23,385 nucleotides of DNA, from IMG/VR virus record IMGVR_UViG_3300017956_002049, positions 1-23,385 of that record. One strand, 5' to 3'. Shown here piece by piece: positions 3,180 through 23,385 of the stretch. This stretch comes from a virus. Positions within the stretch are counted from its first letter, which is position 1; each line of letters opens with the position of its first letter. Under the pieces are notes generated by a model that did no database searches, was not told where the DNA came from, and saw only the letters and a program-made list of their open reading frames with translations. The translations under genes and the position numbers were made by a program.

Positions 3180-5978
3180 ATGGCAGAATTAGTATCACCA
3201 GGTGTTAGTATTACGGTAGAAGATCAAAGTTTCTATGCGCCTGCTGGAACTGGAACAGTTCCACTAATTGTGATTGCAACAGCACAAGACAAAACAGCAC
3301 CTAACGGTACTGACACAGCTGCATTCACAACTAAAGCAAGTGCTAATCAGTTGAAACTGATCACTAGTCAACGTGAACTACTAACAAATTATGGTAATCC
3401 GGTATTTAAATCAGATGGCGGCACTGTATTACAGGGTAGCGAGTTAAACGAGTACGGTTTACACGCTGCATACAGTTTCCTAGGACTTGCTAACAGAGCA
3501 TACGTCTTAAGGGCTGACATCGATCTAGACTCAATTGAAGGTTCTTCAAGTGCACCTTCAGCCGCTCCAGCAAATGGTACTTACTGGTTAGACACAGCTC
3601 TATCAGTTTGGGGCCTTAAGAGATGGAACGGTAGTACATGGGTAAGACAAACTGTTAAAGTTGCATCAACAACACAAGTGGACAGTGCAGGCATTCCGCT
3701 AGCAGCATTTGGTGTTGATGGTGATTATGCAGTTTCATACCACGACAACGCTGGTAACACATTAGAAATCATCAGTTTCTACGAAAAAGTAAATGGTGCA
3801 TGGGTGTTAATTGGCGGTGGTTCTTACACTGGCGACTTCCAAGTTGCCAAGCATACAAGCCTACCTATTACAAACAGTTCAGGTGGTTCTTTAAGCACAG
3901 GCGACATGATTTTACAAATGAATTCATCTAACTCAGGTTCGAATCCAGCATTAAAAATTTACGTTAATGGACAGTGGATTACACTTGGTGGTGCTGGTGA
4001 AGAATTTGCATACCAAGCATATAGTGCATATGATACTGGTGGTACTTTAGAGCAAGCAGACCTATGGTTTGACTACTCTGCAGATCAAGCAACAGTAAGC
4101 ATGAAGCGTTGGAATGGTGGTAGCACTAACCAAGCACAAGGTACACAACTGTCTGACACAGCAGTTAGCCTAACAGCTCATACCAATACAGCAATTTCTT
4201 TCAACATTGTTGTACACAATGCAGATGAGCAAAATGGCAACTCAGGTATTATTCCGGTACAGTTAGGTAATAACTCCTCTGGAAGTGCTTACGATTCAGA
4301 CGCAGACGGCAACGCAAGCGTTAACGATATCGTGCAAGCCATCAACGATGCATTAAGTGCTGCTGATAACAGTTTAACATTCTGTGATGATATCACAGCA
4401 AGTAATGTTGCCGGTAAAATTACACTAGTAAGTTCATCTGCTTACGATATTGAAATACGTGGCGGTAACGTTGCTGGATTTGATGCAACTGATATTGGTT
4501 TATTAGATTCTACACCATATACTAACTGGGAAGACCTAAGTTTTGAATCAAGCAGTACAGCATTAACAGGCACACTAGCAGATGGTACTTTATGGTACGA
4601 CAGTCTACTAGATAATGATAATATTGACATCTTGTGGAACGATCCAACCAGCGGTTGGGTAGCATATCCATATGATGTACAAATTGCAGCTTCACAACCA
4701 ACAACACAGTCTGATGGTTCTAGTTCACTGGTAACTAACGATTTGTGGGTTGATAGCAGTGATTTAGAAAATTATCCTCGCATGTACAAAAGATCAAGTG
4801 CAGGTGCTTGGGTAGAAATTGATACAGCAGATCAAATAAGTCAAGACGGTGTTTTATTTGCTGATTTCCGTAGTAGCACTGGTGGTATGGATTCAGATGC
4901 ACCAAGTGCAACAGTATACCCATATTACATTCTTGGTTGGAACAAGAGAATGTCTGGCGGTAACGTTAAGAAATGGGACGCTACAAACAGCAGATGGGAA
5001 GATGAAAGTGGTAACAGAAATAACGGTACTCCTTACATGTTACGTAAGGCTCAAAGAAACGTTATTGTTGAAGCTCTTAACTCTGCATTAGCAAGTAATA
5101 CAGATGCACGTAACGAAAGCAACAGATTTAACCTAATTGCATGTCCTGGTTATACAGAGGCAATGGGTCCAATGAATACGTTGTCAGCAGATCGTAAAGA
5201 AACTGCGTTCGTTATTGGTGATGCTCCACTACGTCTTGCAGCAGATTCCACAAGTATACAAACTTGGGCTGCAAATACAAACAATGTGGGCTTTAACGGT
5301 GAAGATGGATTAACAGTATTCAATGAGTACTCAGCAGTTTATTATCCACACGCTATTACAACAGATTTATCAGGTAATAGTGTACTTTGCCCAGGTTCAC
5401 ACATTGCATTGCGTACACTAGCATACAACGACCAGGTGGCATTCCCATGGTTTGCACCAGCAGGTTTCCAACGTGGTGTTGTAACTAATGCTTCAGGTAC
5501 AGGTTACTTAGACAGTGCTTCAGGTGAGATTGTTCCAGTCGCACTAAGCGAAAGTCAACGTGACACAATGTATATTAATAAGGTTAACCCAATTGGTAAT
5601 TTCCCTGGCAGAGGTTTAGCAGTATTTGGTCAAAAGACACTAAGCTCAACAGCAAGTGCTCTAGATAGAGTTAATGTTGCACGTTTAGTTGTTTACATCA
5701 GAGAAAGACTTGACGATATCGTTAAGCCATTCTTGTTTGAACCAAATGATGAAATCACACGTCAAAATGCCAAGGTTGTTGTAGATAGATTCTTAGGTGG
5801 CCTAGTTTCAAACAGAGGTTTATTTGATTTTGTTACAGTTTGTGATACTTCAAATAACACTCCAGCAACAATCGACCGTAATGAATTACATATTGATGTG
5901 GCTATACAACCGCTTAAAGCAGTTGAATTCATCTACATTCCAATACGTGTTCAAAACACTCTTGGTCAAACAGGTTAA
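3180..5978 (+). CDS. 18: Contractile tail sheath protein gp18, with large modular insertion
   Basis: Encodes the sheath subunit that polymerises around the tail tube and contracts on infection. The N-terminus (MAELVSPGVSITVEDQS, then PLIVIATAQDK) is the classic T4-like sheath start. The C-terminal third (residues about 620-932) carries the conserved sheath core: LIACPGY near 652, PWFAPAG near 756, a NKVNPIGNFPGRGLAVFGQKT segment (800-820), RVNVARLVVYIRERL (830-844) and KPFLFEPND (849-857). The protein is 932 aa against about 659 in T4 gp18. The excess is residues about 120-620, which hold about seven short beta modules with LWxD and NGxWV signatures. The start has a strong AAGGAG 7 bases upstream and a late box further up. 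A rho-independent terminator follows the stop. Sheath identity is secure; the insertion probably decorates the outside of the tail, which is inference. Confidence 0.96.
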   Translation: MAELVSPGVSITVEDQSFYAPAGTGTVPLIVIATAQDKTAPNGTDTAAFTTKASANQLKLITSQRELLTNYGNPVFKSDGGTVLQGSELNEYGLHAAYSFLGLANRAYVLRADIDLDSIEGSSSAPSAAPANGTYWLDTALSVWGLKRWNGSTWVRQTVKVASTTQVDSAGIPLAAFGVDGDYAVSYHDNAGNTLEIISFYEKVNGAWVLIGGGSYTGDFQVAKHTSLPITNSSGGSLSTGDMILQMNSSNSGSNPALKIYVNGQWITLGGAGEEFAYQAYSAYDTGGTLEQADLWFDYSADQATVSMKRWNGGSTNQAQGTQLSDTAVSLTAHTNTAISFNIVVHNADEQNGNSGIIPVQLGNNSSGSAYDSDADGNASVNDIVQAINDALSAADNSLTFCDDITASNVAGKITLVSSSAYDIEIRGGNVAGFDATDIGLLDSTPYTNWEDLSFESSSTALTGTLADGTLWYDSLLDNDNIDILWNDPTSGWVAYPYDVQIAASQPTTQSDGSSSLVTNDLWVDSSDLENYPRMYKRSSAGAWVEIDTADQISQDGVLFADFRSSTGGMDSDAPSATVYPYYILGWNKRMSGGNVKKWDATNSRWEDESGNRNNGTPYMLRKAQRNVIVEALNSALASNTDARNESNRFNLIACPGYTEAMGPMNTLSADRKETAFVIGDAPLRLAADSTSIQTWAANTNNVGFNGEDGLTVFNEYSAVYYPHAITTDLSGNSVLCPGSHIALRTLAYNDQVAFPWFAPAGFQRGVVTNASGTGYLDSASGEIVPVALSESQRDTMYINKVNPIGNFPGRGLAVFGQKTLSSTASALDRVNVARLVVYIRERLDDIVKPFLFEPNDEITRQNAKVVVDRFLGGLVSNRGLFDFVTVCDTSNNTPATIDRNELHIDVAIQPLKAVEFIYIPIRVQNTLGQTG
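3537..5039 (+). repeat. Degenerate modular repeats in the sheath insertion (LWxD...NGxWV modules)
   Basis: At protein level, sheath residues about 120-620 contain diverged modules with a G(T/D)xW or DLWxD opening and an NGxWV-type ending. Residues: 133-155 (TYWLDT...WNGSTWV), 181-212 (VNGAWVLIG), 241-270 (YVNGQWITLG), 293-314 (DLWFDY...RWNGG), 469-496 (TLWYDS...SGWVAY), 520-547 (DLWVDS...AGAWVEI) and a partial one at 595-608 (KKWDATNSRWED). Marine phage fibre and decoration proteins carry very similar short beta modules. Residues about 333-430, between modules 4 and 5, form a different domain. Copies are too diverged to be DNA repeats. Confidence 0.7.
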
Positions 5979-6104: not shown

Positions 6105-6746
6105 ATGGCAGATGAAATTCAGACAATAGAAACTAGAAGTAAATTTGGTGTACCCGTAACTGGTTCTTCCGGTTCAGGTATTCTGATGCCTAAACTTAAA
6201 TATCGCTTCCGTGTAAGTATGCTAGGTGGCTTTGGCGGTCAGCCAGAAGCTCGTGCATTTACGCAGAATGTTCAGAGTGTAACTCGTCCAAAGATTACTT
6301 ATGAAGAAGTAGTACTTGATAGTTATAATTCACGCTCTTATGTTCAGGGCAAACACAGTTGGGAACAAATCAACGTAGTTTTACGTGATGATATTTCTAA
6401 CAGCGTATCTAAGTTAGTAGGTGCTCAGATTCAGCGTCAATTGAATCATTTCCAACAGACAACTCCAGCTGCAGGTAACGACTATAAATTCGATATGCAA
6501 ATCGAAGTGTTAGACGGTATTAATGCTGGTGCTTCAGAAGTTTGGTTCCTAGAAGGCTGTTTCTTAACAAACGTTGACTATAGTGAAAGTGACTACAGTG
6601 CAAACGATCCTGTACAGGTGACATTGCAAGTACGTTACGATAATGCAACACATTATCAAGGTAGTAACGATGTTAATGGAAGAGTCGAAGGTGGTAACCC
6701 ATTCCCTGATACTGTTGACCTAAATGATCCAGGCACTGGCGCATAA
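6105..6746 (+). CDS. 19: Tail tube protein gp19
   Basis: Encodes the subunit of the inner tail tube through which DNA passes into the host. Residues 28-44 (MPKLKYRFRVSMLGGFG) form the first tube-fold strand. Residues 58-96 (VTRPKITYEEV, then SYNSRSYVQGKHSWEQINVVLRDD) match the T4 gp19 pattern, in which V.RP, YNS and a W-containing strand end in a DD turn. A helix (VSKLVGAQIQRQLNHFQQ) follows. Further strands (IEVLDG, EVWFLEGCFLTNVDYSESDYS, VTLQVRYDNA) complete the fold. It is 213 aa against 163 in T4, with extra residues at both ends, including a Gly/Asp/Pro-rich C-terminal tail. It lies directly after the sheath, as in T4, but is separated by a terminator and has its own late box and strong ribosome-binding site. 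Assignment is secure. Confidence 0.92.
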   Translation: MADEIQTIETRSKFGVPVTGSSGSGILMPKLKYRFRVSMLGGFGGQPEARAFTQNVQSVTRPKITYEEVVLDSYNSRSYVQGKHSWEQINVVLRDDISNSVSKLVGAQIQRQLNHFQQTTPAAGNDYKFDMQIEVLDGINAGASEVWFLEGCFLTNVDYSESDYSANDPVQVTLQVRYDNATHYQGSNDVNGRVEGGNPFPDTVDLNDPGTGA

Positions 6747-6790: not shown

Positions 6791-8038
6791 GTGAGTAAAC
6801 TATTTGATATCTTTGGTTTAGGTACAGGCAAGAAATTTTACTTACGTGACTTCAAAAATGCGTATCATTTCAGACCTGACGTAAACCCTGTACGACATAA
6901 GTTTCAGGGTTACGTCAACTTTATTTTCAATAGAGAAAGTCAATTATTCAGAGAGTTATATGCTGATCCTAGCGATGGCTCTAAAGAATTCCGTACCACT
7001 CTTAGTACTCTTGTACGCACAGCAGATTTGCCTGCTGTACAGTTTAATACTGAAGTTAAAAACGAATACAATCGTAAAAAAATAGTCAATCTGGGCGTAC
7101 AATATAACCCAGTAGGTATAACTGTTTACGATACTGTGGGTAATGAATGGCTACAAGTATTAATGAGATATTTTTCATACCATTATATGGATCCCAGAAA
7201 TAAATCTGGCACTCCTGGTGGTACAGGCGCTAGGGATATTGCAGGTGAAAGATCCAGGATAGGTGGTGCTGAAAATGTAAACGCTAATACATTTATGGCT
7301 GAAGATACTTGGGATAGTAACAGAGCAGGATATAATCCAAACGTGTCAGCAAACTTTTTTGAGCGTATAGATTATGTATTATATCATGGGAATAGAGGTG
7401 TACAGTATAGCATTATAAATCCGGTACTCACTAAATTTCAACCAGGTAGTATAGATTACAGCGACAGTGGTTTTATGGATTTTCAAATGGAATTTGAGTA
7501 CGAAAGTTTTACAACACATAATGTTCAAAACTTTGGTTTAAGTGCTGAAGATGTCGATAGATTTGAAAATGTTAGTGCTATGACAGGACCAGCATTTGCT
7601 GAGGCAGAGTTACCATTAAGCATGCAAGTACCAGACCCAGATTCAGATTCATCAGGACAAGAACTTAATATGCTTGGAAAAACATCCACATTAGGAGGTG
7701 AAGATTCTTATCGTAGTAGACAACCACAACCTACAGATGATGGGACACAAGAACAAGTAGACACTGGTGAAACAGATGAAGAAGGTAATCCAATTTATGA
7801 ACCTAAACCACCGGCAACAATTCCAGCAGTGTATGGTACAGCAGTAGATTTTGCATCAGCAGCTGCCGGTGACGGAAAATATGGTTTAGATGATCTAATA
7901 GGTGATGTAGCAGATAGTGCATTGACTGCACTAATACACGGAACATCAGTTAAAGACGCAGTTCTTGGTCAAGTTGTGGGTAGTACACTAACTATAGTTC
8001 AACAAGATCTAGAGGCTGATGGAGATGGAGATACGTAA
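6791..8038 (+). CDS. Tail tube-fold protein, possibly gp54-like tube initiator
   Basis: Encodes a 415-aa protein that starts with GTG at 6791 behind AGGGGA (6779-6784). Residues about 20-240 look like a phage tail-tube fold: FKNAYHFRPD, VNFIFN, TADLPAVQFNTEVKNEYNRKKIV (78-99), GVQYNPVGITVYDTVGNEW (102-120), a helix ending FSYHYMDP, and late strands VQYSIINPVLTKFQPG and MDFQMEFEYESF (229-240). T4 gp54, which joins baseplate and tube, has this fold and comparable length (about 320 aa). A second tube-like or tail-terminator role is also possible. Residues about 260-345 are acidic and low-complexity (Asp/Glu/Gln/Pro), likely disordered; the C-terminus is Ala/Gly/Asp-rich and ends ADGDGDT. Its stop overlaps the next start by 1 base (TAATG), implying translational coupling. 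Confidence 0.6.
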   Translation: MSKLFDIFGLGTGKKFYLRDFKNAYHFRPDVNPVRHKFQGYVNFIFNRESQLFRELYADPSDGSKEFRTTLSTLVRTADLPAVQFNTEVKNEYNRKKIVNLGVQYNPVGITVYDTVGNEWLQVLMRYFSYHYMDPRNKSGTPGGTGARDIAGERSRIGGAENVNANTFMAEDTWDSNRAGYNPNVSANFFERIDYVLYHGNRGVQYSIINPVLTKFQPGSIDYSDSGFMDFQMEFEYESFTTHNVQNFGLSAEDVDRFENVSAMTGPAFAEAELPLSMQVPDPDSDSSGQELNMLGKTSTLGGEDSYRSRQPQPTDDGTQEQVDTGETDEEGNPIYEPKPPATIPAVYGTAVDFASAAAGDGKYGLDDLIGDVADSALTALIHGTSVKDAVLGQVVGSTLTIVQQDLEADGDGDT

Positions 8039-8475
8039 TGCCTCAAAGTAGTATTACATTATACGATACGTTTGGTAATGAGGTAAAATATCGAATTACA
8101 CAGGACACTTTGGTTGCTTATCTGGAAAACTCCACTGTTAATTTTCCACTACCAGAAGCAAGTGCTGATCTACTAGGTAACCTAGCAGATATTAGCACAA
8201 TAGAACCCACACAATTAGAAGCAGTAAAATCCAGATTAGAAAAAGTGGGATTCAGTAAGCCCAAAGCAAAAACAATGGCAAGTGTTTTAATCAAAGTTGC
8301 TCAAACACAGGGCATCAGTCCAATGGAATATTTTGAGGTAAACCAAAACAGCCTTAAACTTGCAATAGATACTTATAAGACAATCAATCTTTTCCGTCCT
8401 GTTGGCAATCAAATTGGTTTAAATTCACCGATTAAAAATAGTAAAAGCCTATACGGAAAGATGATTAAACCATGA
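8038..8475 (+). CDS. Unknown small protein of the tail/head gene cluster
   Basis: I do not recognise this 145-aa protein. The N-terminus has a beta-like start (SSITLYDTFGNEVKYRI). The middle (residues about 50-110) is helical, with a KSRLEKVGFSKPKAKTMASVLIKVAQTQGISPMEYFEV stretch that could be a small helical bundle. The C-terminus is basic (SPIKNSKSLYGKMIKP). There is no membrane segment or signal peptide. It overlaps the upstream tube-like gene by 1 base (TAATG) and the downstream gp4 gene by 4 bases (ATGA). It is therefore almost certainly translated as part of this late operon. The context between a tube-fold protein and the head-completion nuclease suggests a minor virion or assembly role, which is inference only. 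Confidence 0.75.
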   Translation: MPQSSITLYDTFGNEVKYRITQDTLVAYLENSTVNFPLPEASADLLGNLADISTIEPTQLEAVKSRLEKVGFSKPKAKTMASVLIKVAQTQGISPMEYFEVNQNSLKLAIDTYKTINLFRPVGNQIGLNSPIKNSKSLYGKMIKP

Positions 8476-8939
8476 GTAAATTCCAGCAAGGCGAATACAT
8501 AGTTGAAAACAGACAAAAATACGTAGGAAGTAAATCTCCCTATTACCGTAGTAGTTGGGAATTGGCCTTTTGTCGTATGTGTGATCAACATCCTAACATT
8601 GTTAAGTGGGCAAGTGAAAATATTAAAATACCCTATCTAAACCCTTTAACAGGTAAACACACTGTATATGTTCCAGACTTTATGATACAATATATAGACC
8701 GTGACGGACGTGAACATGTTGAGCTTATAGAAATCAAGCCTAGCACACAAACTACCATGGAAAATGCCAGAGGAAAACGAGATCAGGCAAGTGTAATATT
8801 AAATGCAGCTAAATGGACAGCAGCACAAGAATGGTGCAAACGTAAAGGCATACGTTTTAAAGTTATAAATGAAGATCAAATATTCCAAACCAAGAAAAAA
8901 CGTAAACCCAAAGCTCGTATACCCAAGAAAAGAAAGTAA
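8472..8939 (+). CDS. 4: Head completion nuclease gp4
   Basis: Encodes the 155-aa homologue of T4 gp4 (150 aa), a protein needed late in head assembly with a PD-(D/E)XK nuclease fold, thought to trim DNA at the packaged head. The sequence shows YRSSWELAF (E30), PYLNPLTG, YVPDF (D69) and ELIEIKP (E87, K89). This is the E...PD...ExK arrangement of the fold, with the YRSSWE and PDF motifs typical of this family. The C-terminus is strongly basic (KKKRKPKARIPKKRK), suited to DNA contact. It overlaps the upstream unknown gene by 4 bases (ATGA). The first SGNH-like gene begins 2 bases after its stop. Assignment is strong; T4 gp4 is biochemically understood mainly through its mutant phenotype. Confidence 0.88.
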   Translation: MSKFQQGEYIVENRQKYVGSKSPYYRSSWELAFCRMCDQHPNIVKWASENIKIPYLNPLTGKHTVYVPDFMIQYIDRDGREHVELIEIKPSTQTTMENARGKRDQASVILNAAKWTAAQEWCKRKGIRFKVINEDQIFQTKKKRKPKARIPKKRK

Positions 8940-8941
8940 TT

Positions 8942-9799
8942 ATGAAAAAATTTACATTCTATGGTGATAGTTGGTTTTGGGGTTGGGGCATGATTCCATG
9001 CCGGGCTCCCAGATCTAAGACTTTACAAAAATATATGGGCAGCAACGATCCACGTTTTATAAATATGAACCGGTCAAACCCCGCTATCAATTATCAAGTC
9101 TTTACGGAGAATTATAATTGGTTAGGCCTTTATCTGGATTCCTTAGGATATGAATACACTGTGTTTAACCGTCCTGGCAGTGATTGGCCAGCGACAGCCG
9201 ATCAATTTGAAGATTCCATAAACAGAATTATAGAGGGGATAGATACTGCACCAGAATGGCATGTGATGTTTTATTCCTTACCAGTAAGAGATATAGATCT
9301 TGAAAGATTATTATTTTCTGGGAGAGAGATGGTTGCTGTACAAGAAGAACTAGACAATTTAAAAGATGAATATTTGTTAAAAATAGGTAGACTAGCACAG
9401 CAACATGATCAAAAAGTTATTATAGCAGGTGGACAAAGTGTGTTGCATAAAAAACATATCAACCGGTTACCGGCTGAATTACTAACACATGTACATCTTT
9501 TAACACCCTGTCTCAGTACTGCCGCTTCTACACCTACTGACAAGCCTATCCCAGATAGTCCTAAGTATGGTGAATTCAAACTTGCTGGATTTGTTATGAA
9601 AGAAGAACTGCAACACGCACATCCTAGTATTATTAGTAAGTTACATGCCGATACTAAACAACATAAGATCTCCGATGAAAGCGGCATATCAAACGTTGAA
9701 AACTGGATGAACTTTTATCCAGATTCCGGACATTTAGGTCCAATTGGCCATTTTAGGTTTCTTGATATGCTGTTGAAATATATCGAAGACCATAAATAG
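8942..9799 (+). CDS. SGNH/GDSL hydrolase-like protein A
   Basis: Encodes a 285-aa SGNH-fold protein. Block I is FYGDSWFWGWG with the candidate nucleophile Ser10 directly after Asp9. A block II-like NRPGSDW provides Asn/Gly oxyanion-hole candidates, and a C-terminal DSGHLGPIGHFRFLD gives Asp261 and His264 in the D-x-x-H spacing of the family. The usual block III GxND is not clear (FYSLPVRD sits there), so activity is not certain. No signal peptide is seen. Family members are esterases, lipases or carbohydrate deacetylases. A role in deacetylating host surface glycans or modifying phage or host sugars is inference. It begins 2 bases after gp4 with a weak AGAAAG site, and its stop overlaps a late box serving gp16. 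Two further SGNH-like genes lie nearby. SGNH membership is likely; the substrate is unknown. Confidence 0.75.
   Translation: MKKFTFYGDSWFWGWGMIPCRAPRSKTLQKYMGSNDPRFINMNRSNPAINYQVFTENYNWLGLYLDSLGYEYTVFNRPGSDWPATADQFEDSINRIIEGIDTAPEWHVMFYSLPVRDIDLERLLFSGREMVAVQEELDNLKDEYLLKIGRLAQQHDQKVIIAGGQSVLHKKHINRLPAELLTHVHLLTPCLSTAASTPTDKPIPDSPKYGEFKLAGFVMKEELQHAHPSIISKLHADTKQHKISDESGISNVENWMNFYPDSGHLGPIGHFRFLDMLLKYIEDHK
9791..9798 (+). promoter_or_regulatory. T4-type late promoter box for gp16, leaderless geometry
   Basis: CATAAATA at 9791-9798 overlaps the stop codon of SGNH gene A. Exactly 5 bases separate it from the gp16 ATG at 9804, the same spacing as at 1615. The predicted RNA start coincides with the ATG, and no Shine-Dalgarno sequence is present. 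Confidence 0.55.
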
Positions 9800-9803
9800 T
9801 TTT

Positions 9804-10289
9804 ATGACTCGTAAACTAGAAGAAGAATTCAATCTACCACATCTGGATGAGATGAATGATACCGATCCAGCAGAACCTATTGACCCCAAACAGCAGATAG
9901 CAGAGATTGAGGAAGCACTTAGTTTAAGTGATAAAATTAATTCTGCACTCAGTCAGGTTCGCAGTATGGATTCACATGATAGTGAAATGGACGATATTGC
10001 TCAACAAGCAATTGAAAGTTATGAACAACTAATGAGTTTGGGTATGAACATGACTGACATGGCAGCCGGTCCTGTGTTTAACAATGCAGCCCAAATGTTA
10101 AAGATTGCACTGGAAGCCAAAGACAGCAAAACTACACGCAAATTAAAACAAATTGATCTCATGTTGAAAAAAGCCAGAGTAGATCAAGCAGAAAAGAAAC
10201 TCACTGGCGGTGATGAAATTGAAAATGTAGAATCCAGACCACTTGATCGTAACGAATTGTTAAAAATACTTAGTGCCAAGGACGATTAA
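9804..10289 (+). CDS. 16: Terminase small subunit gp16
   Basis: Encodes a 161-aa, mostly helical acidic protein that matches the size of T4 gp16 (164 aa), the small terminase subunit that recognises DNA and stimulates the packaging motor. The N-terminus is acidic and likely disordered. It is followed by a helix around residues 30-55 (QQIAEIEEALSLSDKINSALSQV). Residues about 60-130 form two long helices (IAQQAIESYEQLMSLGMNM, then FNNAAQMLKIALEAKDSKTTRKLKQIDLMLKKARVDQAEKK), resembling the central antiparallel coiled coil of this family. The C-terminus (RPLDRNELLKIL) is a short conserved-looking helix that could contact gp17 or DNA. The start ATG lies directly behind a late box with no ribosome-binding site. 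The stop overlaps the next start by 1 base. Assignment rests on size, helix pattern and neighbourhood, so it is good but not certain. Confidence 0.75.
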   Translation: MTRKLEEEFNLPHLDEMNDTDPAEPIDPKQQIAEIEEALSLSDKINSALSQVRSMDSHDSEMDDIAQQAIESYEQLMSLGMNMTDMAAGPVFNNAAQMLKIALEAKDSKTTRKLKQIDLMLKKARVDQAEKKLTGGDEIENVESRPLDRNELLKILSAKDD

Positions 10290-11044
10290 TGAACATCCTT
10301 ATTGCGGGCGACAGTTATGGTGTGCCTAGCAGTCACATCAATACAGAAATGTTGCAATGGTGGAATAACGTAGATAAATCTAACTCACCAGCAGAAAACC
10401 ATATACACTGTTTTTTAGAAAAAGATCATGTTGTTAACAACATATCTATTTCTGGCACTAGTGCAAAATCCAGCATTTCTAAATTGAGTACGTGGCTAAT
10501 ACGTAAGCACGACATCGAAATTACATATTCAACTCATCATTCCTTGGGCATTAATAAAAATCCTGATATCAAGTATGATTTGTTGATATACTTTCAGCCA
10601 CCCATAATGAGAGATTTCCATACCTTTGACAACTCAAACACAGTACGTAGGCAGATGTTAGAAACAGCACATGGTATATATAAAGATATAGCCTTATTGT
10701 GTGAAAAATCAAACATACCAAATATTGCATTGATTGGGGGTGCTGGCCGCGTTTATCCATTCCACACAGAATATCTAAGTCCGCAATATTACAAGGAGGA
10801 TTGGAAGGCAGAAATATTAGGTTGGCCCGAGCCGTTTTACGCTCAAACATTAGGCGGATTACCCACATATGAACAACTTGTAGAAAAAAATACTAGCACA
10901 GAATTTATAACAGACTTAATGAATAATCATTACTATGTAATTAATGCAATGGCAGAATCAGATAGATTTCCTGATAATGCTCATCCTGATGCACTAGCAC
11001 ACGAGCAATTATACCTAGAACTTAAACATAAATTTAATCTTTAA
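10289..11044 (+). CDS. SGNH/GDSL hydrolase-like protein B
   Basis: Encodes a 251-aa SGNH-like protein. Block I is IAGDSYGVPSS with Ser9 after Asp8. A block II-like NISISGTSAKSS follows, and the C-terminal FPDNAHPDALAH gives Asp229 and His232 in D-x-x-H spacing. The middle has LLIYFQPPIMRDF where block III would be, again without a clear GxND, and a later strand IALIGGAGRV. No signal peptide or membrane segment is visible. Its start overlaps the gp16 stop by 1 base (TAATG), so it is translationally coupled to the small terminase subunit, which is unusual for an esterase-type enzyme. A late box lies just after its stop. It is diverged from SGNH genes A and C, sharing mainly the catalytic blocks. 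SGNH membership is likely; substrate and activity are unknown. Confidence 0.75.
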   Translation: MNILIAGDSYGVPSSHINTEMLQWWNNVDKSNSPAENHIHCFLEKDHVVNNISISGTSAKSSISKLSTWLIRKHDIEITYSTHHSLGINKNPDIKYDLLIYFQPPIMRDFHTFDNSNTVRRQMLETAHGIYKDIALLCEKSNIPNIALIGGAGRVYPFHTEYLSPQYYKEDWKAEILGWPEPFYAQTLGGLPTYEQLVEKNTSTEFITDLMNNHYYVINAMAESDRFPDNAHPDALAHEQLYLELKHKFNL

Positions 11045-12922: not shown

Positions 12923-13765
12923 ATGCGTGATCTGTTTATAAATGGTACAAGTATTGCCTCTGGTTGGAGTCAGGGGTATAAACCTGATCCTAATAATTAC
13001 AGTTGGGCAAACTACTTTGCTAATCTTATAAACAGTGAAAACATGTGGAACGTATCATATGTTTCCAAGCCCATACAGGTCACTATAGAACACACTATTG
13101 GTTTTTGTGAGCAATACTATGAAAAGTATGGTACTTACGAAAATTTATTAGCAATGGTCGAATTGTTACTACCACAAAATGTAAAGTGGCCCAGTGTGTC
13201 TTTTAAAAACAAAGAAATCAGCGATGTTATATCACCTGTTGTAGTGTTTAAAAATAAAGAAGGCATAGCAAACACCGACACTTACAGTGACATAGGGACT
13301 ATGTTTATCAGGCACAAGGCACAAATCGATTACCTATCTCAACAAAGTCATTTTGAATATGTGCCTCATTCAGAAGTAGACAGTATTGATTATGAAATAC
13401 ATGCACATAAATTACAAACATATTATGCAGATAACAAGACATTATTAGCCAAAAGACTACATGAAGCAAACCAGGAAATTAATTTTTTACACGAGTGGTT
13501 AACAACCAGGAACATAAATTACCTGATGTTTTGGGGGTGCGGTATAGGAAATCAGTTTCATAAAATTGTAGACCGTTCTATCTCTACACATAATCGTTTA
13601 ATACCCATGCAGAAATTTACTTGTTTTAGCAAGGCAATTGAGTGGTCGGTTAAGCCAGACGGCTATCATCCGGATCAGACGGGACATAAAAAAATAGCAG
13701 ACTATTTGTTTTCTGAATTAATGGATAGATCACAAGCAGTCAGCATGCTTAAAAAAATAAACTAA
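12923..13765 (+). CDS. SGNH-like protein C (variant catalytic block I)
   Basis: Encodes a 280-aa protein with SGNH-like ends. Block I reads FINGTSIASGW, with Ser10 preceded by Thr instead of the usual Asp. The C-terminal block V is DGYHPDQTGHKKIADYLF, giving Asp246 and His249 in D-x-x-H spacing. The long middle, including a helix KLQTYYADNKTLLAKRLHEANQEINFLHEWL and a strand INYLMFWGCG, has no clear GxND block III. No signal peptide or membrane segment is seen. It has its own late box 6 bases before the ATG and no usable ribosome-binding site. The gp17 start is 8 bases after its stop, and the gp17 late-like box overlaps that stop. Because of the GTS variant it may have lost or changed activity. 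It is the most diverged of the three SGNH-like genes. Confidence 0.65.
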   Translation: MRDLFINGTSIASGWSQGYKPDPNNYSWANYFANLINSENMWNVSYVSKPIQVTIEHTIGFCEQYYEKYGTYENLLAMVELLLPQNVKWPSVSFKNKEISDVISPVVVFKNKEGIANTDTYSDIGTMFIRHKAQIDYLSQQSHFEYVPHSEVDSIDYEIHAHKLQTYYADNKTLLAKRLHEANQEINFLHEWLTTRNINYLMFWGCGIGNQFHKIVDRSISTHNRLIPMQKFTCFSKAIEWSVKPDGYHPDQTGHKKIADYLFSELMDRSQAVSMLKKIN

Positions 13766-21955: not shown

Positions 21956-23385
21956 ATGTATAAAAAAATAATACTCTCAGCACTAGCAATAATATCCTTC
22001 ACAGCGTCAGCACAGGAGATTGAAGAGATCACCGTGATTGGCAGTGTAAGTGATATTCAAGACGTAAATGAAATTATAGTAACTACATTATCAGAAGCAT
22101 TGCAGCCTACAACGGTTTTTGTTCCTGGTGGTGTAGGTGGCTTTTCTGGTTTTTCAGAAAGAGGCACACAACCAAATCACACCGCAGTTTATCGTAACGG
22201 TGTACCAGTTAATGATGCTGGTGCCGGGTGGTATGATTTGGGTCATGATTTAGCCACAGGCAATGAGCAGGTTAAATTTGTGAGTGGTCCACAAGGAGTA
22301 CTGTATGGTACTTCCAGTATGGGCGGAACAGTCTTTATCAATGATAAAATTCAGCAAGGGTATGTTGCTAAAACTGGTAATCGAAAACAGTTAATCAGTG
22401 CAAGTCCGCTGGATTTATTCAATGTTACATACGCCAGAATAGACAACGGCAGTGTCAGAACAGACAATACTGAAGAGGATATCTACAAACAAGTGGGTGC
22501 CAGGGTACAGTACACGTTCTTTGATGACTTAGAATTTACTGCTAACTATCAGGATTACGACTATGATTATGACGAGTGCTATACAGCAGACTGGAGCACC
22601 ACTAATGATTGTTTACAGTCTGGTGTAAGGCAAAGTTTTAGTATTCGTAATGACAATTTTACCCTGGGCTACAGTAGTAATGATCAGGAATTCTTTACAC
22701 AGGACGTATCCACATACCAGAGTCTTGCAGAAAATTATTACTTTGATGTCAGACAGGATGCTGAGTTCTTTTCAGGATTAGTAAACACTGTGGTAGGTTT
22801 AACAGCCAGCAAAGACATTTACATGGATCAGGAAAAAAGTAATATTGAACAGTATGCATATATGAACATCAATAACACTGTGGACTTTGGTGTACGTTTT
22901 GCAGACGATATCACGGTGGGCAAACTGGGTGTATCTTATGGTAACTTTTTTGCATCAGCAAGTACAAGTTATCGTAGGCCAACACTGTATGAGTTAAATG
23001 GAGATAATGTCTTTGTTATGGCTAATGGTGACTTGTTGCCTGAAGAAGGTGTTGGATACGAAATGGGCTATGGTGTCTTATCTCTGTTTAAATACGAGTT
23101 CACAGAAGGTATAGACTATGCTTATGATACCTTAAACTATGTAAACACTGGTGAGTATGAAACAAAGGGTGTAAGGTTTAATAATACGTATGACTTCTAT
23201 AATGGTAGTAGTATAGGAGTATTTTTAGGCTACACAGACACTCTAAGAGCTAGAATACCAGAATACAAAGCATCGTTATCCTACAACCACACATTTGGTA
23301 AATGGAGTTTAAGCACTGTGTTTGTTGGACAATATAACAGAGGTGAAGACTTCAATTGGGGTACAAACGAACAGATTGATTTATC
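21956..23385 (+). CDS. TonB-dependent outer-membrane receptor, BtuB-like (3' truncated by window edge)
   Basis: The frame is open from ATG 21956 to the window edge (476 codons seen) and has no stop. GGAG lies 5 bases upstream. The product begins with a signal peptide (MYKKIILSALAIISFTASA, likely cleaved before QE). The mature start EIEEITVIGS is a TonB box. A plug domain follows (residues about 40-145): LSEALQ, GFSERGTQPNHTAVYRNGVPVND, then EQVKFVSGPQGVLYGTSSMGGTVFIND, with the GP.GVLYGTS.MGG.V signature. The rest is a beta barrel with YRRPTLYEL, NGDLLPEEGVGYEMGY and YVNTGEYETKGVRFNN, the landmarks of the late barrel in BtuB (614 aa in E. coli). About 130 residues would be missing. Such receptors import vitamin B12, iron chelates or sugars using TonB energy. 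Vitamin B12 is suggested only by overall resemblance. The family is secure; presence in a phage is the odd feature. Confidence 0.93.
   Translation, partial: MYKKIILSALAIISFTASAQEIEEITVIGSVSDIQDVNEIIVTTLSEALQPTTVFVPGGVGGFSGFSERGTQPNHTAVYRNGVPVNDAGAGWYDLGHDLATGNEQVKFVSGPQGVLYGTSSMGGTVFINDKIQQGYVAKTGNRKQLISASPLDLFNVTYARIDNGSVRTDNTEEDIYKQVGARVQYTFFDDLEFTANYQDYDYDYDECYTADWSTTNDCLQSGVRQSFSIRNDNFTLGYSSNDQEFFTQDVSTYQSLAENYYFDVRQDAEFFSGLVNTVVGLTASKDIYMDQEKSNIEQYAYMNINNTVDFGVRFADDITVGKLGVSYGNFFASASTSYRRPTLYELNGDNVFVMANGDLLPEEGVGYEMGYGVLSLFKYEFTEGIDYAYDTLNYVNTGEYETKGVRFNNTYDFYNGSSIGVFLGYTDTLRARIPEYKASLSYNHTFGKWSLSTVFVGQYNRGEDFNWGTNEQIDL

Follow-up and report, generated by a model that had tools for sequence, protein, structure and literature searches.

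Results

A contractile tail sheath gene in the window

The window, a stretch of viral DNA of 23,385 nucleotides, carries an open reading frame at 3180-5978 that encodes a protein of 932 amino acids. In a profile search with the whole ORF, PHROG 10581 ('tail sheath') matched residues 1-928 (E 7e-230), and the Pfam family Phage_sheath_1C passed its cut-off at the C-terminus (Table 1). Residues 2-112 were aligned by hhalign with residues 1-83 of T4 gp18 (E 4.5e-5), and the C-terminal core aligned with T4-type sheaths. These profile matches identify the predicted product as a T4-type contractile tail sheath whose N- and C-terminal core is intact, in line with the first-pass annotation, which had described the core motifs on either side of a long insertion as intact.

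Upstream of the sheath gene lie a neck-type gene (1628-2389; PHROG 'head-tail adaptor Ad2') and then a dNMP kinase gene, and downstream are two tube-type genes with starts at 6105 and 6791. Both 6105-6746 and 6791-8038 match the tube-protein PHROG 4542 (E 2.7e-52 and 1.6e-7), so that the phage may have two tube-type proteins. In PA5oct the gene order is neck, structural protein, sheath, homing endonuclease and structural proteins.

We searched 50,697 phage records by tblastn and found relatives of the sheath in 2541 of them; the closest were PA5oct and its kin (41% identity over 99%). Among viral contigs, 588 pattern-matched stretches encode a sheath relative, a count based on sheath patterns and not on the modules described below. 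We conclude that the gene encodes the main sheath protein of the contractile tail of a PA5oct/RaK2-type jumbo myophage, with an ordinary polymerising core (residues 1-116 and 613-932).

Table 1. Parts of the sheath gene and its tube-type neighbour (window positions)
Feature	Residues	Position	Strand	Basis
Sheath N-terminal core	1-116	3180..3527	+	Profile matches N-terminus of all jumbo relatives including XacN1, E 1e-58 to 5e-32; residue 112 = T4 gp18 residue 83
M1, fibre-type beta module	117-162	3528..3665	+	hhalign to M6 1.5e-11, M7 7e-7; modelled strands 135-138, 145-149, 154-156, 159-162
M2, divergent beta module	163-215	3666..3824	+	hhalign to M3 4.6e-4, score 20.0 vs 11.3 best shuffle; modelled strands
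M3, fibre-type beta module	216-275	3825..4004	+	hhalign to M7 3.3e-11
M4, fibre-type beta module, DLWFD at 294	276-330	4005..4169	+	hhalign to M7 2.2e-6, M1 1.7e-5
M5, alpha/beta, Flagellin_IN-related via relatives	331-445	4170..4514	+	hhalign 1.2e-5 to the second of two such domains in Atu_ph07-type sheaths; Pfam 9.5 bits for M5 itself vs 22.7 cut-off
EF-hand-like loop DSDADGNASVND in M5	372-383	4293..4328	+	Pattern in 18/69 relatives
M6, fibre-type beta module	446-497	4515..4670	+	hhalign to M1 1.5e-11
M7, fibre-type beta module, DLWVD at 521	498-548	4671..4823	+	hhalign to M3 3.3e-11
M8, beta unit, well conserved in relatives	549-612	4824..5015	+	hhalign to M1 score 17.0 vs 13.1 best shuffle; matches PA5oct 4e-21, CBB 4e-8, RaK2 1e-6
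Sheath C-terminal core	613-932	5016..5975	+	Phage_sheath_1C 826-924 E 1.6e-11; hhalign to T4-type sheaths 4.8e-41
Tail tube-type protein, sheath neighbour		6105..6746	+	PHROG 4542 'tail tube protein' E 2.7e-52

The outer region is an array of short modules

The stretch from 3537 to 5039 (residues 120-620) had been described as about 500 inserted residues holding about seven beta modules. An AlphaFold2 model of the 932-residue protein built on 69 relatives reached a mean pLDDT of 87.5 and a pTM of 0.76; most of the insert scored above 90, and values below 50 were confined to residues 1-22 and 928-932. The modelled strands group into seven short beta units (M1, M2, M3, M4, M6, M7 and M8) besides one alpha/beta unit (M5), and the earlier count of modules was thus correct. 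According to the model, residues ~117-612 are confidently predicted to be a beta-rich region of seven short beta-meander modules and one alpha/beta module.

Profile-profile comparison revealed that M1, M3, M4, M6 and M7 are mutually homologous. The strongest pairs were M1-M6 and M3-M7, and all others reached ~5e-5 or better except M3-M6, for which no significant match was obtained; none of the five matched either sheath core. With 20 column shuffles for each of seven pairs of these modules as control, real scores were 24-50 and the best shuffled score was at most 18.9. M2 is weakly related to the other modules, M8 marginally, and M5 is unrelated. The closeness of M1 to M6 and of M3 to M7 suggests that a block was duplicated.

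We built an HMM from the five modules and searched 109 sequences; it detected four to six modules in nearly every full-length sheath and, in the flanks, nothing else. The DLWxD-type starts and NGxWV-type ends attributed to the modules were found in part: DLWxD occurs at residues 294 and 521, but elsewhere the literal motif is not strict (YWLD, LWYD etc.). The insert and its modules matched no Ig-like family of Pfam at E up to 10. Searches of Pfam and the PDB with single modules yielded no usable match: the PWe1 endolysin (E 0.0045), a neuraminidase (0.41) and, for M5, ribosomal S11 (E 0.014) may be leads or chance.

The array stands in place of the T4 outer domains

By hhalign, residue 112 pairs with residue 83 of T4 gp18, and the next significant alignment begins with residue 692 against T4 residue 425. 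Domain II of gp18 comprises residues 88-97 and 189-345, and domain I residues 98-188 (PMC8570332). From these borders, residues ~117-612 (~496 residues) occupy the place of the two outer domains of gp18, which together span 258 residues (88-345). The T4 alignment does not reach the C-terminal border of the outer region, which we therefore estimated from the model and the conservation seen in relatives. T4 gp18 thus shares the homologous N- and C-terminal core and differs in its 258-residue domains II+I, in which no module was detected. We conclude that the outer region replaces and enlarges the usual outer domains and that nothing is added onto a complete T4-like sheath. A long region does lie between the cores, as claimed, and 'insertion' is a fair term relative to the sheath core, but the ~500 residues are not extra to the domains of T4.

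The shared location raises the possibility that the array is only a jumbo version of T4 domains I and II, duplicated and without any further job. Sheath size rises with genome size, the additional domains of T4 are reported to be non-essential for sheath formation (PMC9230969), and the block duplication suggested above would fit such growth. Against this, the sheaths of T4, cyanophages, Vi01 and XacN1 are without such a module, and neither purifying selection nor very broad presence in the group (both shown below) would be expected of useless bulk. We regard this explanation as improbable.

M5 and the gain, loss or relocation of modules

M5 scored 9.5 bits for Flagellin_IN (PF07196), under the curated cut-off of 22.7. 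In the sheaths of Atu_ph07 and Phosso, M1 and M3 enclose two Flagellin_IN-type domains, and the first of these passes this cut-off (26.0 and 28.9 bits, respectively). In Atu_ph07-type sheaths, the first and second domains are related to each other (2.8e-7) and the second to M5 (1.2e-5). Since M5 is tied to the passing domains only via this intermediate domain of relatives, we call it Flagellin_IN-related on profile evidence and not a member of the family. Between M4 and M6, Atu_ph07 and Phosso have almost nothing; in contigs L023, L024, L101 and L103-L107, residues resembling a Flagellin_IN-type domain occur at both places (M1-M3 and M4-M6). Judged from these alignments, whole modules of the outer region have been gained, lost or moved at one site. 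The notion that XacN1 retains an M5-type domain was unsupported (hhalign probability 0.2%, no Pfam match).

M5 also contains a 12-residue loop of the pattern DxDxDG, which is present in 18 of 69 relatives; the Pfam EF-hand family matches one family member only. We suggest this EF-hand-like loop as a putative calcium binder.

The modules are of a type found in tail fibres

A scan with M1 gave weak E-values to PHROGs annotated as 'tail fiber protein' and 'minor head protein' and to others of unknown function, and tblastn directed us to tail fibres and to tail proteins that bind carbohydrates. Using M1 of a relative, tblastn returned one chance match only, and with M6+M7 it found sheaths almost exclusively; a profile search was needed for the link between modules and fibres. 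The sheath-module HMM scored 33.1 bits against a Geobacillus phage tail fibre, 26.4 against a CenC-like protein of Listeria LP-101 and 21.2 against an Exiguobacterium protein, and the best score from 20 shuffles of each protein was 11.2 bits. Because M1 had already pointed to these three proteins, we recomputed their E-values for an assumed database of 3.5 million proteins and obtained 8.7e-6, 0.0016 and 0.041, respectively.

In the fibre of the marine Synechococcus phage S-B68, three tandem modules were detected in the last 520 residues (45.4 bits, E 1.3e-9), a score that drops to 24.6 bits (E 0.004) over the whole protein of 3105 residues; this fibre was chosen only because its neighbour gene matched the Geobacillus module. 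The gene adjoining it also matches the module profile (E 1.2e-4). The modules of S-B68 (three tandem copies) and Geobacillus phage NIIg9.7 (one), e.g. NTAPTNPTTGQLWLDT...LKRWDGSTWV, are of the same type as those of the sheath but are few and lie within much larger fibre proteins, outside any sheath. Both the fibre matches and the low shuffled scores bear out the earlier naming of the units as fibre-type beta modules.

Matches to the Geobacillus module occur in 217 phage records. Most of these phages infect Gram-positive hosts, with Roseobacter and cyanophage cases among the rest, and the matched proteins are largely annotated as tail or structural proteins. This spread indicates that the module belongs to the phage adsorption apparatus generally, marine phages included. 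The proposed link to marine phages therefore holds for S-B68, but the design is not specifically marine.

The array is standard in a group of giant phages

Module-bearing sheaths were found in PHROG 10581 and in PA5oct, RaK2, 121Q, CBB, SCTP-2 and Atu_ph07, whereas profile searches detected no module in the sheaths of T4, the tested cyanophages, Vi01 or XacN1; the last has a related core with ~284 residues at the array site. PA5oct (Arenbergviridae) and PHROG 10581 share the core and the module order, with four to five modules by profile, but PA5oct has a shorter sheath (879 aa), in which the modules have diverged further than in the one studied here. RaK2, 121Q and CBB have the same core, an insert of ~450 residues in the same position, in which three or more modules could be detected, and a conserved M8, but M5 was undetected by hhalign. 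In Atu_ph07 and Phosso, again with the same core, M1, M3, M4, M6, M7 and M8 are recognisable in sheaths of ~1090 aa. These differ in the place of the Flagellin_IN-type domains: both lie after M1 and ahead of M3, and the M4-M6 interval has none. An array common to the whole group means that this sheath is not unusual and that the array is not special to this phage.

The array is conserved by selection

In 68 contig relatives, the insert is 467-574 residues long, which supplies the comparison of lengths that the first-pass annotation had proposed. Mean identity to the studied sheath is 38% in the insert versus 68% and 62% in the two cores. Identity is highest in the modules towards the ends (M1 48%, M6 44%, M7 52%, M8 49%) and lowest in the middle modules (26-33%). 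Distances in insert and core correlate (r = 0.87; the pairs are not independent and no probability is attached). For 20 close pairs, after exclusion of one nearly identical pair, dN/dS was 0.04-0.26 in the insert versus 0.04-0.17 in the C-terminal core, and no positive selection was seen; the one dN/dS value near 1 belongs to a pair that hardly differs and was disregarded. From these gene comparisons, the array is under purifying selection and evolves roughly twice as fast as the core. Taken together, dN/dS and the correlation indicate that it is kept by selection and is not freely swapped in the way of many receptor-binding proteins.

Mean dS was greater in the insert (0.71) than in the core (0.45), which leaves some exchange of inserts possible. 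In the sheath genes of contigs L096 and L089, the cores are 97-99% identical at the amino acid level but the inserts only 69-86%, and insert dS is about twice core dS. This pattern hints at insert exchange between phages.

Divergence in step with the core, together with purifying selection, is also what might be expected of a cementing layer, in which the modules of adjacent subunits touch each other and stiffen the sheath, extended or contracted, of a jumbo virion with a heavy head, without binding anything. Such stabilisation of subunits is the main rival to adhesion. It agrees with the proposal, cited in PMC9230969, that the additional domain of Staphylococcus phage 812 is stabilising, and with the rarity of contracted tails in CBB, which the authors read as high stability (PMC5259590); the EF-hand-like loop of 18 of 69 relatives could serve as a calcium-dependent brace. 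In the phiKp24 sheath, however, the outer component has no part in subunit interactions during assembly (PMC9700779), and a tight lattice would poorly tolerate middle modules that are the most variable of all and whole modules that come, go and move. We consider cementing quite possible, if somewhat doubtful.

Other genes on the window and on a related contig

A TonB-dependent receptor gene (21956-23385) runs off the end of the window. Contig L126 has a complete copy at 8001-9587 that encodes 528 aa with a Pfam barrel (E 6.6e-17), a plug (E 2.4e-9) and a signal-peptide-like start. In this second viral contig as well, the gene lies amid phage genes, between an upstream AAA ATPase and a downstream helicase-like gene; tblastn found no relative of it in the 50,697 phage records. 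It would be unusual for a phage to carry an outer-membrane receptor of its host. Downstream of it, L126:12122-14292 encodes an S-adenosylmethionine synthetase (Pfam E 1.4e-54), and ORFs in the same stretch resemble, by eye, a phosphoribosyltransferase and a nucleosidase, making a SAM/purine salvage set in a phage possible.

SGNH/GDSL-hydrolase-like starts are encoded at 8942-9799, 10289-11044 and 12923-13765, interleaved with structural genes; only the last matches Pfam Lipase_GDSL, and weakly (E 0.0012, below cut-off). The product of 8472-8939 has a TnsA-like endonuclease N-terminal domain (Pfam E 1e-21), and a similar gene of CBB is annotated as head completion protein gp4. At the left edge (2-289), the end of a gene with a weak match to GDP-mannose dehydratase (E 3e-4, below cut-off) is a hint of sugar metabolism adjoining the structural genes.

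Discussion

In this study we describe a jumbo phage tail sheath in which five clear and two divergent fibre-type modules and one Flagellin_IN-related module lie between two ordinary core parts, an anatomy of which we are highly confident. Multi-domain sheaths of jumbo phages are known: Evseev et al. 2022 (PMC9230969) report five or more domains, often Ig-like, and propose stability or adhesion as roles of the extra ones. In their type 3 sheaths, which are commonest in jumbo phages, a long outer section with several beta domains likewise interrupts the core, but these are often Ig-like, and the passages considered here do not mention fibre-type modules; the main text does not name PA5oct, RaK2 or 121Q. 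The RaK2 paper (PMC3622015) describes a sheath ~18 kDa larger than that of T4 with one C-terminal region matched. In the literature searched, which covered part of the field, we found no description of these modules in a sheath, and the module make-up of the outer sheath is apparently undescribed.

Mass spectrometry of virions has detected the insert-bearing sheaths of PA5oct, phAPEC6 (PMC7247149) and RaK2 (PMC3622015). phAPEC6, a relative of 121Q, has 25 hexameric sheath rings (PMC7247149), and by analogy the present phage would have ~150 sheath copies per tail. At this number, the inserts of one tail would comprise roughly a thousand modules with a mass of 7.9 MDa, and the earlier expectation that hundreds of modules cover the tail is supported by the same analogy. 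Both ends of the array meet the core at one place, so the chain probably runs out and back. Topology and conservation together suggest that the better conserved M1 and M6-M8 would lie close to the core, with the variable M2-M5 as the outermost part.

As the best explanation of the whole we propose, at a probability of roughly 0.45, a jumbo sheath with an outer module array that forms a putative weak adhesion layer. The enlarged surface would make many weak contacts with polymers of the cell surface in support of the real receptor-binding fibres, and the core would contract as usual. This explanation draws on a module type that is shared with tail fibres and carbohydrate-binding tail proteins, and on conserved ends, a variable middle and purifying selection with evolution about twice as fast as in the core; adhesion is also among the proposals for the extra domains of other large sheaths (PMC9230969). 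For the function taken by itself, weak multivalent surface contacts are a tentative assignment that we rate a little short of even. The absence of positive selection counts against adhesion, as does the correlated divergence of insert and core, by which the array is not freely exchanged like many host-range determinants. Homology of the modules is, moreover, no proof of binding by the sheath copies, as the modules of fibres may be spacers. A stronger version, in which the tail shaft is a multivalent adhesin whose fibre-derived modules let every ring bind cell-surface glycans, so that the machinery of contraction would also serve for adsorption, seems to us unlikely.

Microscopy of relatives gives mixed indications of tail width. 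PA5oct tails in negative stain measure 19 nm extended and 30 nm contracted (PMC3936114), no wider than usual, which counts against an enlarged outer layer. The RaK2 sheath protein self-assembles into tubes 41 nm wide (PMC8618960).

Some of these phages bear hair-like tail appendages, and the modules might serve as the platform on which these are anchored. CBB, with a module-bearing sheath, has whiskers along its tail (PMC5259590), and phAPEC6 also has tail whiskers (PMC7247149). However, the hairs of phAPEC6 occupy three annular positions only, which argues against docking on every subunit of every ring (PMC7247149); those of Atu_ph07 are mainly on the capsid (PMC6102473), and no hairs are described for PA5oct, whose sheath carries modules. 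Docking is accordingly very improbable in our view.

The putative weak adhesion layer thus remains our preferred reading. What the extra part of the sheath is made of had been left open for this group of jumbo phages. Here it consists of tandem modules of adsorption proteins and a Flagellin_IN-related domain that are changed as whole units at one site, and the same array can be traced in several isolated laboratory phages. A make-up of this kind offers a specific and testable hypothesis for the role of the outer sheath.
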